Assembly (NCBI GenBank): GCA_029007115.1
Contig: JAQXHG010000054.1
Coordinates: 1 to 40,649 of the forward strand
Reading direction: 5' to 3'
Source: a bacterium
GTDB lineage: Bacteria; Bacillota_I; Bacilli_A; RF39; UBA660
DNA: 40,649 bases
Made by a program: the position numbers and the translations under genes. The notes under the pieces were generated by a model. The model saw only the letters and a program-made list of their open reading frames with translations, made no database searches and was not told where the DNA came from. This document shows positions 10,179 to 22,516 of the stretch, in pieces (the first letter of the stretch is position 1; the number at the start of each line of letters is the position of its first letter).

Positions 10179-11957
10179 ACCTGAACCAAATGATTCTAAC
10201 TCTTGTTGTGTAGCAATAACATTAATTCTCATTCTTCTATTACCACATACAAATAGCGCTTGACCTTGACTATATCTTTTTATTGAATCTTTTTCTTGTT
10301 CATTTAAATCAACTAATTTACTTAAATCTTCTACAGCTTGCTTCTTTAATCCCATTACCAAATAATATGAAGCATTATCAAATATAGCTTTACCATGTAT
10401 TAGTACATTTGGTGCGGCAAAATCAGTAGGTTGTTGAGTAATGATAATCGTACCTGTATTATATTTACGACTTCTTCTTTGAATACGAGCCAAAAACTCA
10501 GCACCTAAAGTATTTTGATCAGCAAGCAACATATGTGCCTCATCAACCATCAATATTGTATTGACTTCTCTATCTAAAGTTAGTCCCCATGCATATTTCA
10601 AAATGTTAAAGAACAATGCATTACGAATATTATTATCGGCATTCATCAATTCACGAATATTAAATACAATAAAATCTGCATCTGTATCAATTGTAGTCTT
10701 ACCTGTAAAATAATATCTTAATTCTTTAGTCAATGGTCTAATTTTAAGTTCTAATCTTTCCATAATATCTCTTTCATGCGTATGTTCTGTCATTGATAAA
10801 AGTCTACCTTTTATTGTTGCATAAACATCATCAAATGTAGGATAATCATGAGATAATATTTTAGTAAAATCAGTATCATAATCTATTTTATATCTTTTAT
10901 ATGTATCTTGTACAACTTCACTAAATAATGTAAGAACATCTTCTTCAATATCAGGACTATAATATTTCATAAATGCTTTTAAAGTTTGAAGTGTACGAGT
11001 AAGTACAGCATAACCAGTACCTTCAGCCATTTCTTCTTCATCTGCATCCAATACTATTTCAAGTGGGTTAATCATACCAAAGTCTCCACCTTTACCTAAA
11101 TCAATAAAGTCTCCACCATATAATTTAGTCATTTCTTGAAGTTCACCTTCAGGGTCGATTGCTACGATTTTATGACCATTTCTAATATTTGCTCTAAGTA
11201 ATACTTTAGCAGCAGTAGATTTACCACTACCAGAAGTACCTAGTATAATCATATTAGCATTATTTCTATTAAACTCTTTTTTAGTTTGATATAAAAATTG
11301 ATTAAATAAGATAACACCACCAGAATAATCAACACCAAGTAAACATGAAAGTCCTGGATCTTTGATACTATCAAATACAAACGGATACATTGCAGCCATA
11401 GTAACTGATGGTATTGGTGTTCCAATTCTATCTTCAATATCATTTTTTTCAAATATAGGAAGCATGCTCTTTAAAATCTTTTCTTGTTCAAATCTTAATA
11501 CAACACCTTTCATTCCCATTGCATCTAAATAATTTTTAACTTGTACTTTTTTATTTTCTAATTCTTCATGAGAATCAGCAGAAATCATAATATGCATTTG
11601 AAAGTCAAATATTCTAGCTTGAGTAGCAGTTAACATTGAAATAAAATCTTCAATACTCTCATAATCTTGTCTTATTTGTTCTTGAATAGTTCTATCATGC
11701 TCATTTGAATATCTAGATTTCATATCTGCTATTTCTTTATTAAGCATTTTAGATAGTACTGAAAACGCAATTGGAATATGTTTAATACATACTTTAATTC
11801 CTGATAATTGAGTAATATTTGCAAGATAACCTTCACTTATAGATTTAGGATAACTAATTATTGTTAAAATAGCACAATATTTATCACTAATTATCATTTC
11901 AGAAGGTCTAAATTCTAATCCCTTAGGAGCCAATTGGCTTTTAAAACTTACGCTCAT
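10167..11957 (-). CDS. virB4: VirB4-family T4SS ATPase
   Basis: This is the motor ATPase of the secretion system. An N-terminal VirB4-type domain (about 1-200) precedes the ATPase: Walker A GTSGSGKST (240-248), the RANIRNGHKIVAIDPEGEL strand, Walker B ILMVDEAHMLL near 466-476, and the RRSRKYNTGTIIITQQ segment typical of VirB4/TraC enzymes. At 596 residues it is shorter than the roughly 800 of many VirB4 proteins; the missing part may be supplied by the gene just upstream, which overlaps it by ATGA. The C-terminus ends in a Gly/Ser-rich tail. Confidence 0.93.
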   Translation of the reverse strand: MSVSFKSQLAPKGLEFRPSEMIISDKYCAILTIISYPKSISEGYLANITQLSGIKVCIKHIPIAFSVLSKMLNKEIADMKSRYSNEHDRTIQEQIRQDYESIEDFISMLTATQARIFDFQMHIMISADSHEELENKKVQVKNYLDAMGMKGVVLRFEQEKILKSMLPIFEKNDIEDRIGTPIPSVTMAAMYPFVFDSIKDPGLSCLLGVDYSGGVILFNQFLYQTKKEFNRNNANMIILGTSGSGKSTAAKVLLRANIRNGHKIVAIDPEGELQEMTKLYGGDFIDLGKGGDFGMINPLEIVLDADEEEMAEGTGYAVLTRTLQTLKAFMKYYSPDIEEDVLTLFSEVVQDTYKRYKIDYDTDFTKILSHDYPTFDDVYATIKGRLLSMTEHTHERDIMERLELKIRPLTKELRYYFTGKTTIDTDADFIVFNIRELMNADNNIRNALFFNILKYAWGLTLDREVNTILMVDEAHMLLADQNTLGAEFLARIQRRSRKYNTGTIIITQQPTDFAAPNVLIHGKAIFDNASYYLVMGLKKQAVEDLSKLVDLNEQEKDSIKRYSQGQALFVCGNRRMRINVIATQQELESFGSGGGF

Positions 11958-18522: not shown

Positions 18523-19023
18523 TTATCTAACTTCTTTAATTAGTGTAGTATTCTTACCTCTTTCATTAATATATTCATTTGTAATTTTAAATCCAAACTT
18601 TAACATATTAGATAATGAATATTTATTATCACTTGCAGCTTTGGTAAATATATATTTGTAATTATTAGTTTTACAATATTTCTCTAACTCTTCCATCATT
18701 TGAAATTGTAGATTATTTCCAACATAATTTTTACTTACCATAATTGGTCCTAAAGAAGCACATACTTTTTCATCATAAAATACATTATTCTTATTTAATG
18801 TTTTATTACTAGAAGGAAGCATAAACATAGAACATACTAGATCATTATTATTGTAATATAACCATATTTTAGCTCCTACTTTTAATAATTCTTCTATTTC
18901 TTCTTTAGTAAAATCTCCTAACCAACTAGGACTTTCCATATTATCTTTTACGGATTTATATAATTTTAAATAATCATCTAAATCAACATTTTCATTTACA
19001 CAATATAAATCACTTATTTTCAT
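18523..19023 (-). CDS. GNAT-family acetyltransferase
   Basis: A 166-residue protein with the GNAT fold pattern: SLGPIMVSKNYVGNNLQFQM corresponds to the acetyl-CoA binding strand and helix, here with a loosened Q/RxxGxG/A loop, and the C-terminal YIFTKAASDNKYSLSNMLKF is the usual last helix and strand. The substrate is unknown. It overlaps the end of aroF by ATGA and is therefore the second gene of that unit. Confidence 0.75.
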   Translation of the reverse strand: MKISDLYCVNENVDLDDYLKLYKSVKDNMESPSWLGDFTKEEIEELLKVGAKIWLYYNNNDLVCSMFMLPSSNKTLNKNNVFYDEKVCASLGPIMVSKNYVGNNLQFQMMEELEKYCKTNNYKYIFTKAASDNKYSLSNMLKFGFKITNEYINERGKNTTLIKEVR

Positions 19024-19739
19024 ATTACCTCTTTTATTCTTCTTATATCATTTAATATTTCTTCTAATTCTTCTATAGTTATTGCTTGTTCTTTATCACA
19101 AAGTGCTTCATCTTTTTTATCATGCACTTCAATAATAAGTCCATCTGCACCTGCTACTATAGATGCTAAAGACATAGGCTTTATCATATAAGATAGTCCT
19201 GATGCATGACTTGGATCTATTATAATCTTGTTATTTGTGTTATTTTTTATATAAGGTATACTTTGTATGTCTAGTGTATTTCTTGTGGAATTATCAAAGT
19301 TTCTAATACCTCTTTCACATAATATAACTTTACAATTATTTATATATTTTGAAGCATTTATCCATTCATTATATGTAGCTGAAAATGCTCTTTTTAATAT
19401 AACTGGTTTATCATATTTACTTAATTCTTTTAATAACTCATAATTATACATATTTCTACTACCTATTTGTATTATATCTATAACATTAGCAAATTTTTTA
19501 ACTTGCTCAATAGTCATAAGTTCAGTGACTATTTTTATACCAGTTTCTCTTTTTGCCTTAAGTAAATATTCGATACCTTCATCCCCTAAACCCTGAAAAC
19601 TATCAGGATTAGTTCTAGGCTTAAACGCTCCTCCTCTTAAATAATTAATACCTAATTTTTTTAATTTTTTTGCAATTCTTATAATTTGATCCTTTGATTC
19701 AACCGCACATGGTCCTGCTATTATTAATAATTCATTCAT
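19020..19739 (-). CDS. aroF: 3-deoxy-7-phosphoheptulonate (DAHP) synthase, type I-beta
   Basis: This enzyme catalyses the first step of the shikimate pathway, joining phosphoenolpyruvate and erythrose 4-phosphate. The short (239-residue) class related to KDO8P synthase is identified by GPCAVESKDQI, RGGAFKPRTNPDSFQGLG, ILCERGIRNF and IIDPSHASG. No regulatory ACT or chorismate mutase domain is attached, so feedback control, if any, is separate. AAGGTGAAATT precedes the ATG. It follows the two-HEPN gene by 26 bases and is translationally coupled to the GNAT gene. Confidence 0.93.
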   Translation of the reverse strand: MNELLIIAGPCAVESKDQIIRIAKKLKKLGINYLRGGAFKPRTNPDSFQGLGDEGIEYLLKAKRETGIKIVTELMTIEQVKKFANVIDIIQIGSRNMYNYELLKELSKYDKPVILKRAFSATYNEWINASKYINNCKVILCERGIRNFDNSTRNTLDIQSIPYIKNNTNNKIIIDPSHASGLSYMIKPMSLASIVAGADGLIIEVHDKKDEALCDKEQAITIEELEEILNDIRRIKEVI

Positions 19740-19765: not shown

Positions 19766-21343
19766 TTATAAACTCACAGGCTTATTCTCTCTATTATCCA
19801 AAAAATCTAATATAGTTTTTAAATACTTTTTTAAATTATCTAATGATTGCATAGTACCAACTATGTTTTCTAATTCTTTAATAACATCATCAACTGATAA
19901 TTCATATTGTATTTGAGATTGGCTTTCAATTTGTTTTAAAAAGTTATCCATATTTTCAACACTTATTCTACAATCAAAATCTCTATCATCATTCCTATTA
20001 TCTTTTCTATCAAATATTTCTATGTAATCATCTACATCAAAATTAATATTTTTATGAGCAACTCCATTTCTAATTTTATTTAATAACCATTCATTTCTTC
20101 TTTTTAATAAAATTAATAAATTATTAATTTCATTAACAACATATTCTCTTTGTATTTCAGGATTTAAATAACTTTTTCTATTACTATCTCTAAAATTATC
20201 TAATACTACTATTAATTTCCTAATTGCTTTTTTTATACTTTCCTTATATATGTCATCACTTACATCAAAATTATACATCGTTAGACCATCAGCCTCTACA
20301 TTTTCCATATCGGAAAATACAAAAATCATATGTGAGTATAATACACAATAATAATCATTTTCGTTTATTAATAATCTTGATAATAAATTAAGTAGTTTTC
20401 TTGATTTAGAATCATTTAACTTATTTTTCTTAACAAATGATTTTATAAGTTTTAAAAGTCTAATAAAGAAATAATTTCTTTGCTCATTATTCATTCTATC
20501 TCTTAATCTATTATATTCATTTATTATATCTTTTAACTCATTTAAAAATTTTATATCATCAATATATTTTATTTCTTCTTTAATCAAGATTATTATTTCT
20601 TCTATACTTTTTTTATTATCTTGATAATAATTTTTAGTTTTATAATTATATTCATTATATTTATTATTATCTATGTCAAAATCTGGCATTTTTTTAATAT
20701 AAATATCAGATAATTTATTTGATTGTATTTTTCTATTTTCAGTTTGAACACTATAATAGTTACTCATTATATTTTTTTCTTCACATAAAAAATTAAGTGC
20801 CTCTGGAGATATATCAACTTTAAACTCAAAACTACCTAACTTATCATCTATAATACTATTATTAATTATAATTACATTATTACTTAAATCAAATTCGAAT
20901 TGTTCTCCATGAACAAATGAATCCCTAATTTTTGAGTATATCCAAACTACTCTTTTAATTTCATTTAATTCATTATTGCTTCCACTAAAATTATCTATTT
21001 CGATTTTTGTTCCTAATGGAAAAGTTAAATTATCTATTCCATCAAAACAACCAGTTTTTGTTAAATCAAACTCTCCAAGAGATGGTACATTTATTTTTAT
21101 CGTTGATGATTTAAATAATTCTTCTATAAGTATTTTACATTTTATGTAATCATTTTTATATAATGAATAGTCAAAATACAATGTATTAGTAGTAGAATCT
21201 TTTCTAATTATTGACTCTTTTTTAGCAACAAAAAGAGAAACACTTAACATAAAAAAATCTTCTATATTAAGTATTGAATCATTGTTAGATTTTAATTTAT
21301 CTACAAGTTTTCTAGATTTTTTAATTATATCTTTTAATTTCAT
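19766..21343 (-). CDS. Protein with two HEPN RxxxxH motifs, putative RNase
   Basis: A soluble protein of about 525 residues. It contains two copies of the HEPN catalytic motif: IRDSFVHGEQFEFD (R140/H145) and IRNGVAHKNINFD (R425/H430), each followed by the short acidic beta segment usual in HEPN domains. HEPN proteins are commonly metal-independent RNases in toxin-antitoxin, abortive-infection and CRISPR (Cas13, Csm6) systems. The length and spacing match none that I recognise. The open frame begins upstream at 21448, but AGGAG at good spacing fixes the start at the ATG at 21343. A structured RNA gene is divergent from it. Inserted between housekeeping genes, it looks acquired. Confidence 0.75.
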   Translation of the reverse strand: MKLKDIIKKSRKLVDKLKSNNDSILNIEDFFMLSVSLFVAKKESIIRKDSTTNTLYFDYSLYKNDYIKCKILIEELFKSSTIKINVPSLGEFDLTKTGCFDGIDNLTFPLGTKIEIDNFSGSNNELNEIKRVVWIYSKIRDSFVHGEQFEFDLSNNVIIINNSIIDDKLGSFEFKVDISPEALNFLCEEKNIMSNYYSVQTENRKIQSNKLSDIYIKKMPDFDIDNNKYNEYNYKTKNYYQDNKKSIEEIIILIKEEIKYIDDIKFLNELKDIINEYNRLRDRMNNEQRNYFFIRLLKLIKSFVKKNKLNDSKSRKLLNLLSRLLINENDYYCVLYSHMIFVFSDMENVEADGLTMYNFDVSDDIYKESIKKAIRKLIVVLDNFRDSNRKSYLNPEIQREYVVNEINNLLILLKRRNEWLLNKIRNGVAHKNINFDVDDYIEIFDRKDNRNDDRDFDCRISVENMDNFLKQIESQSQIQYELSVDDVIKELENIVGTMQSLDNLKKYLKTILDFLDNRENKPVSL

Positions 21344-21406
21344 TATTGCTCCTATTAAAAGAATAACATACATAATAAAATTATTAAATATTTTTTTAAA
21401 AAATAC

Positions 21407-21435
21407 TTGACAAAATACTACTTTACCTTTAAGAT
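21407..21435 (+). promoter_or_regulatory. Strong promoter of the small RNA
   Basis: A perfect TTGACA (21407-21412), a 17-base spacer and TAAGAT (21430-21435) sit on the plus strand. The predicted start near 21442 falls exactly at the first RNA hairpin. Confidence 0.7.
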
Positions 21436-21441
21436 ATAGAC

Positions 21442-21590
21442 TTACCAATTCACTTTTAGGCGAATTGGTGCTAGTATCACACTAGCCAACCCCTTTTTAT
21501 TCTTTTTTCCGGACTGTCCATCAGGGGGTGGCAGTCCTATTTTATTGAATTTTAAAGCATAGATGATTTAATCTCTATGCTTTTTATTTT
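21442..21590 (+). ncRNA. Structured small RNA of about 150 nt, unknown family
   Basis: Between a sigma-A promoter and an intrinsic terminator are three hairpins: ACCAATTC/GAATTGGT (21444-21469), GCTAGT/ACTAGC (21470-21486) and GGACTG...CAGTCC (21511-21537), whose inner CCA/TGG step holds the loop TCAGGGGG. That G run can pair with CCCC at 21490-21493, making a pseudoknot across a U-rich linker. No open frame of note is present on the plus strand. It is divergent from the two-HEPN gene and convergent with the radical SAM gene. I could not match it to a known RNA; a riboswitch is less likely because no gene follows on that strand. Confidence 0.65.
21554..21590 (+). terminator. Terminator of the small RNA
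   Basis: AAAGCATAGA (21554-21563) pairs with TCTATGCTTT (21574-21583) and is followed by TTTTATTTT on the plus strand. The minus-strand tail is weaker, so it primarily serves the plus-strand RNA and may also end the radical SAM transcript. Confidence 0.75.
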
Positions 21591-22516
21591 ATATACTTAA
21601 TTCCTTGATAACTATTTCTTTTTTTCATTTCTTTGTCAATATCATTAATAATAGTAGTTTTATTTATTAGCCAATCTGGAGCAATTAAATCTTCTTTTTT
21701 TGGATCACCAGTTAATCTATTAACAACTATATCTTCTCTTAAATATTCTAATTGATCACACACTATATCGATATATTCATCCCTAGTTAACAATTTAAAT
21801 GATTTATTATTATAGTATTCTTCAAGAACAGTATTTTTTAATACTGATAATGCATGTATTTTTATTCCTTGAACATCTAAAGAACTTATATGTTTTACTG
21901 TTTCAATCATCATTTCTTTTGTTTCATATGGCAAGCCATTTATAATATGAACTACTACATTTATATTTCTTTCTCTAAGACGATTAACCATATTATCAAA
22001 ACAATCAAGTGTATGACATCTATTAATTAATATCGATGTTTTTTCATGTATAGTTTGAAGGCCTAATTCTATTGTTAAATAAGTTCTATCATTTAATGAA
22101 GTTAAATAATCTAGGCACTCATCACTAATAGAATCGGCTCTTGTTGCAATACTAAGTCCAACAACATTATCAAGTTTTAGTATTGGCTCATATTTTTGCT
22201 TTAGTACATCAACACTAGCATAGGTATTTGTATTAGCTTGAAAATAACCAATATATTTAGCATTAGGCCATTTTTTTAACATTACTTCTTTTACTTCATT
22301 AAATTGAGTCACTATATCTTTAGTTTTATCTCCTGCATACTCCCCACTTCCACTATTAGAACAATATATACACCCTCTTTTTCCAACTTTACCATCTTTA
22401 TTAGGACAAGTAAAACCACCATTAAGACTCACTTTAAAAACTTTAGAATTAAATTTATGTTTATAAAAATAATCTAAAGTATAATATCTTTTATTACTAT
22501 CACTATATTTAAACAT
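21584..22516 (-). CDS. Radical SAM protein, YhcC/TIGR01212 family
   Basis: A 310-residue radical SAM enzyme of the YhcC family. It has FTCPNKDGKVGKRGCIYCSN, whose Cys spacing is the family's variant of the cluster motif, then GYFQANTNTYASVDVLK and LELGLQTIHEKTSILINR. The reaction is not established for most members. It starts one base into the stop of the HMA gene (TAATG), with AGAGGAG upstream, so translation is coupled. Confidence 0.9.
   Translation of the reverse strand: MFKYSDSNKRYYTLDYFYKHKFNSKVFKVSLNGGFTCPNKDGKVGKRGCIYCSNSGSGEYAGDKTKDIVTQFNEVKEVMLKKWPNAKYIGYFQANTNTYASVDVLKQKYEPILKLDNVVGLSIATRADSISDECLDYLTSLNDRTYLTIELGLQTIHEKTSILINRCHTLDCFDNMVNRLRERNINVVVHIINGLPYETKEMMIETVKHISSLDVQGIKIHALSVLKNTVLEEYYNNKSFKLLTRDEYIDIVCDQLEYLREDIVVNRLTGDPKKEDLIAPDWLINKTTIINDIDKEMKKRNSYQGIKYIK

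Follow-up and report, generated by a model that had tools for sequence, protein, structure and literature searches.

The window analysed here, a stretch of 40,649 nt from the genome (1.24 Mb in 54 contigs) of a gut-type bacterium, carries a gene, P0001, that stands alone between a DAHP synthase gene and a radical-SAM gene (Table 1). Reading the sequence directly, we found on the minus strand the 525-aa ORF reported in the initial annotation, with its two motifs, RDSFVH and RNGVAH, 285 residues apart. The remaining window neighbours are a 166-aa protein that matched nothing in Pfam, HMA, RecG and POR (pyruvate:ferredoxin oxidoreductase). The DAHP synthase and the 166-aa protein are encoded between recG and P0001, where they were not seen in the congeners examined. 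No MNT antitoxin gene is present among the window neighbours and no defence island or prophage context was found; CRISPR arrays were absent from the window, from the locus of the homologue in a congener (G004, see below) and from the vicinity of 22 relatives. The structured RNA gene that had been noticed alongside P0001 was borne out by its promoter, its folding stability and its covariation.

Table 1 Features of the P0001 locus (positions refer to the window)
Feature	Position	Strand	Basis
166-aa protein	18523..19023	-	
DAHP synthase	19020..19739	-	
CDS, double-HEPN protein P0001 (525 aa, ATG at 21343)	19766..21343	-	Open frame with Shine-Dalgarno-like AGGAGC; congeneric homologue; family alignment
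C-terminal HEPN motif RNGVAH (residues 425-430)	20054..20071	-	R425 and H430 invariant in 23 relatives; profile-profile match to L183 subfamily
N-terminal HEPN motif RDSFVH (residues 140-145)	20909..20926	-	R140 and H145 invariant in 23 relatives; profile-profile match to L183 subfamily
Shine-Dalgarno-like AGGAGC ahead of the P0001 ATG	21348..21353	-	Read from sequence
Promoter of the ncRNA gene (not of the HEPN gene), TTGACA-17-TAAGAT	21407..21435	+	Sequence; congeners also have TTGACA and a -10-like hexamer ahead of the RNA
Neighbouring core ncRNA, three hairpins, the last terminator-like; judged independent of the HEPN gene and divergent from it	21438..21545	+	Folding z -5.8; family-wide single copy; covariation
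Radical-SAM gene	21584..22516		

P0001 has three histidines in total, two of them within the motifs, and two R[NDH]xxxH motifs per permutation were obtained at a frequency of 1.5e-4 when its sequence was shuffled. Pfam, NCBIfam, PADLOC, PDB, viral contigs, phages and plasmids, searched with the single sequence, yielded no or chance matches, and PHROGs a chance-level match and nothing else. No HEPN profile matched P0001 itself in profile searches, neither a CARF nor any other Pfam domain was detected in it, and up to E 10 Pfam returned no match for P0001 or the G004 homologue, Abi_2 (PF07751) included. The first reading had recognised no family that fitted the protein in size and context, and no named family was matched here either. 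The silence of the single-sequence HMM searches is the one observation in favour of the two motifs being a chance occurrence in an unrelated protein. The shuffling frequency argues against it, and conservation provides far stronger evidence, because both motifs are kept at 26% identity and their four R/H residues are invariant in relatives; the alignment of 23 divergent relatives described below refutes a chance origin for practical purposes.

When the whole protein was used as the query, P0001-type genes were recovered from 2 of the 18 genomes of the genus (its own and G004) and from no other genome of the bacterial family. The search of the order yielded no true further member, and only P0001 itself and the G004 homologue stand; a match in G304 at that level was discarded, being partial and located in a short ORF, and a GTDB scan found the G004 contig alone. 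The G004 homologue, of 508 aa and 26% identity, has retained both motifs, as RDSFAH and RNAVMH. For the same two loci, identity is about 80% for the flanking RecG and POR proteins and 65% for the radical-SAM protein, indicating that the HEPN gene is diverging far faster than its surroundings or was acquired twice.

More divergent relatives were reached with a profile built from nothing but the four motif segments (A4), which gave matches in 26 of the 291 genomes of the same family, belonging to 21 genera, and about 20 further proteins were taken from there. Nearly all the top matches were ORFs of 490-650 aa, with a few of 800-1000 aa, harbouring two RNxxxH or RDxxxH motifs; in the compact relatives the first motif is usually located near residue 100-170 and the second 170-470 residues further on. 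Relatives were admitted to the 23-protein alignment with two motifs as a filter, yet the pairing of motifs is no selection effect, because the 13 best matches came through a single segment and the second motif was present in 13 out of 13. The aligned proteins share 15-24% identity with P0001 (n = 23), and the only invariant columns are the start methionine, R140, H145, R425 and H430, N426 and D445 being nearly invariant. The R(N/D/H)xxxH motif of the HEPN superfamily is kept among the homologues, a point that the initial annotation had singled out for checking. Relatives, and not P0001 itself, also showed very weak similarity to HEPN_MAE_28990 (E 0.014), HEPN_Swt1 (0.095), the DRT-associated RTasHEPN (0.0015) and CARF_HEPN (0.0038), the only HEPN families with any resemblance and ones of other architectures and partners. 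These sequence comparisons place P0001, as a divergent representative, in an unclassified family of compact double-HEPN proteins that stand alone. The taxonomic limit of this family is a lower bound, since the class-wide search with profile A6 was a coarse first look that missed known members (e.g. G126).

Double-HEPN genes were found in about 5 of the 18 members of the genus, at different loci. The genome G123 contains three of them, of different subfamilies (L185, L192 and L200), each solitary among ordinary genes. Larger members of 800-1000 aa (L187, L191 and L188) carry both motifs plus extra regions. At L197, a 309-aa protein with a single RNLCAH motif, which presumably resembles an Abi_2 protein, is encoded a few genes away from a double-HEPN gene (10929-11858, minus strand). 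The survey of genome neighbourhoods that had been suggested revealed that the relatives sit singly amid housekeeping-type genes, with flanking gaps mostly below 130 bp, and that, away from the window and G004 loci, the flanks fetched hold neither a defence island nor the ncRNA. No copy of P0001 or its relatives was found in searches of phages, plasmids and viral contigs. One close pair of relatives gave a dN/dS of 0.14, indicative of purifying selection in that pair. Such selection, together with housekeeping-type surroundings outside defence islands, would suit a cellular RNase or RNA-binding protein, e.g. an RNA-processing or stress-response factor lost in many lineages. We consider a cellular role unlikely, in view of the very patchy distribution, the several distant subfamilies at different loci in one genus, the three copies in one genome and a divergence far above that of the flanking genes.

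The two motif regions were compared by profile-profile alignment with those of the L183 subfamily, of nine members, to which the P0001 subfamily was matched in both its N-terminal region (probability 97.1%, E 6e-11) and its C-terminal region (90.6%, E 1.3e-6). Over the whole set, the N- and C-terminal motif segments matched each other as well (97.5%, E 7.1e-12), the match running past the motif into the hairpin and the next helix; as both compared segments are motif-anchored, an internal duplication behind the two regions is taken as likely. The HEPN-like context that had been claimed for both motifs was recovered in two homologous regions, in both of which a helix ends in RxxxxH and is succeeded by a beta-hairpin and a further helix. 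The AlphaFold2 model of P0001, built from two sequences, is unusable as a fold (pLDDT 41.8), and at this low confidence it places a helix ending in each motif, then strands, then a helix. A better model was obtained for the relative L183 with nine sequences (pLDDT 84.4, pTM 0.75). Its first half shows a helix (103-115) with RNKMAH, strands (120-140) and a helix (141-157), and its second half a helix (488-505) with RNSIAH, strands (509-539) and a helix (540-562); the middle comprises an alpha/beta region (163-278) and a long coiled-coil hairpin (409-486). No HEPN or Cas13 structure was among the matches listed for this model against the PDB and viral models, which were mostly to the coiled-coil hairpin (model 406-482). 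With this hairpin dominating the matches, the fold searches neither favour nor rule out a likeness to HEPN.

The neighbouring ncRNA folds far better than its shuffled versions, and its last hairpin shows covariation at all eight pairs, the middle being nearly invariant. At about 105 nt, it comprises a nearly invariant GCUAGUAUCACACUAGCCAACCCCUUUUUAUUCUUU core and the covarying terminator-like hairpin, and its conserved G-rich loop could pair with an AACCCC stretch; it is possibly a C-rich regulatory sRNA. At gathering scores no Rfam family matched in the window, the abiF RNA motif (RF03085) included, and identity with a known Rfam RNA was dropped, the RNA region giving only a chance match to P14 (E 3.9). 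Two viral contigs, L035 (4283-4359, minus strand) and L036 (8101-8177, plus strand), contain the invariant core in an exact 38-nt copy, located immediately after a tRNA-like sequence and scoring 34.5 bits with the ncRNA model; a phage mimic or a borrowed terminator is possible.

The initial annotation had taken the gene and the RNA together as an RNA-associated defence or toxin module. Under this reading the adjacent ncRNA would control the protein as antitoxin, guide or activator, as RCd22 does for AbiF and crRNA for Cas13an. In its favour, gene and ncRNA are divergent neighbours in both species carrying the gene here (window and G004), the RNA is structured and nearly invariant, and AbiF demonstrates that HEPN-ncRNA pairing is possible (PMC12373285). 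The distribution of the two genes argues against it: the ncRNA was found in 18 of 18 genomes of the genus and 256 of 291 of the family, normally as one copy, against 2 of 18 and no other family genome for the P0001-type gene by whole-protein search. In a class-wide sample, 35 of 38 family members had the ncRNA, compared with 0 of 258 genomes from outside the family. Nor did the ncRNA turn up in the flanking sequence fetched for the other double-HEPN genes checked, among them the P0001-like gene present in G010. Moreover, window and G004 share 97% identity in the ncRNA and 26% in the protein, so the pair is not co-diverging. We therefore regard a module controlled by the adjacent RNA as improbable. 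Being near-universal, the ncRNA could nonetheless act in trans on any double-HEPN protein, and one may imagine a family of CRISPR-free, Cas13-like RNases that all employ this single core RNA as guide, activator or antitoxin, the window locus preserving or re-creating a cis layout; this extended version seems to us more improbable still.

The usual place of the ncRNA is between recG and POR. Among 58 loci with recG 5' of the ncRNA, recG directly adjoins it in 45, and in 13 there are intervening genes, which are HEPN genes in two cases; of 80 ncRNA loci read, a double-motif gene adjoined in 2 only. We judge the ncRNA to be an independent core gene that almost always occurs without a HEPN gene, and not a partner of P0001. 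That two congeners have the genes side by side can be accounted for by common descent or by a weak insertion hotspot. Many members of the genus have small conserved ORFs (101-109 aa and 120-129 aa) next to the core ncRNA, on its 3' side in L071-L077, L080 and L081 and on its 5' side in L082-L084 and L088, from which we conclude that the recG-RNA-POR interval is mildly variable. Most simply, the place next to the core RNA would be a mildly variable one, which the HEPN gene either invaded or occupies by descent.

Among described systems, Cas13an comes closest in layout. Its proteins have 429-577 aa, the motifs of Cas13an2 are R127/H132 and R363/H368, and a CRISPR array adjoins in 10 of 13 cases (PMC12165695). 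P0001, with R140/H145 and R425/H430 in 525 aa, agrees in size and motif positions, that is, in one chain of about 430-580 aa with an N-terminal and a C-terminal RxxxxH, and intramolecular pairing of its HEPN domains is likely as well. An intramolecular HEPN dimer has been described for twelve uncharacterised AlphaFold clusters, two of which became Cas13an (PMC12165695); the P0001 family might be one of the remaining ten or lie outside them. P0001 could hence be a CRISPR-less relative or precursor of Cas13an, of Cas13/AbiD-F ancestry and possibly from one of those ten clusters, a descent that we treat as a tentative possibility. The likeness is one of size and layout, taken from the published description and not from compared sequences, and two HEPN domains in one chain can also arise by independent duplication. 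CRISPR arrays are lacking, as stated above, around P0001, its G004 homologue and the relatives, and the middle of the P0001-family proteins is variable, with the long coiled-coil hairpin in L183. Since ancestry alone is at issue, such a descent would be compatible with the explanation that we prefer below.

Other known systems differ more clearly. AbiF, a HEPN toxin, is paired with an ncRNA antitoxin, RCd22 in C. difficile (PMC12373285). AbiF/Abi_2 (AbiD/F) proteins resemble P0001 in their HEPN RNase-type motif and in the ncRNA found next to the gene at the window locus, but P0001 has two motifs per chain and no Abi_2 match, and its neighbouring RNA is a family-wide core RNA instead of the abiF motif. 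The HEPN RNase effector logic is shared with CARF-HEPN proteins of the Csx1/Csm6 type, from which P0001 differs in having no detected CARF domain and no CRISPR context. HEPN-MNT (type VII) toxin-antitoxin pairs differ in their adjacent MNT gene, and type III-like RNA antitoxins in that here the ncRNA does not co-occur with the double-HEPN gene.

The explanation we favour, with a probability of roughly 0.6, is that P0001 is a stand-alone compact double-HEPN protein acting as an intramolecular HEPN-dimer RNase, a solo accessory effector in defence or as a toxin that is independent of the ncRNA. This explanation is favoured because of the patchy distribution, the rapid divergence, the conserved paired motifs, the duplicated architecture, the confident L183 model, the weak HEPN-profile matches of relatives, the purifying selection in one close pair and the solitary position of the relatives. 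The two HEPN domains would pack together within one chain, as in Cas13, creating a single composite RNase site, and the variable middle region would sense or bind a trigger. Normally held inactive, the enzyme would respond to a trigger, most plausibly phage infection or another invader, by cutting cellular or invader RNA, which would lead to growth arrest. The HEPN gene would thus act as a single-gene, accessory effector, and its adjacency to the core ncRNA would reflect the place of its insertion. Some HEPN domains bind RNA only, which weakens the RNase reading of P0001. The lack of defence-island, prophage or CRISPR context and the position of most relatives among ordinary genes count against defence specifically, as does the absence of phage or plasmid copies, unusual for a mobile defence gene. 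The observation originally made on P0001 is confirmed and its interpretation partly supported: a defence or toxin role is plausible for a solo, patchy and fast-diverging gene, and the partnership with the ncRNA was not upheld for an RNA that occurs once per genome with or without the gene and is absent near other double-HEPN genes.

To our knowledge, few CRISPR-free double-HEPN single-chain proteins have been described. The case also calls for caution: a partnership should not be read off one locus, as the adjoining RNA proved to be a separate core gene. Cas13 has been proposed to derive from compact single-chain proteins with two HEPN domains (PMC12165695). As judged from its sequences, the P0001 family is new and unclassified, and it is of interest as a CRISPR-free, Cas13-like architecture, of which one bacterial lineage provides many divergent solo double-HEPN examples that keep the catalytic-type residues and are covered by no database model. 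Because the family offers so many solo examples, the trigger of a stand-alone HEPN pair and its possible need for an RNA partner can now be tested directly.
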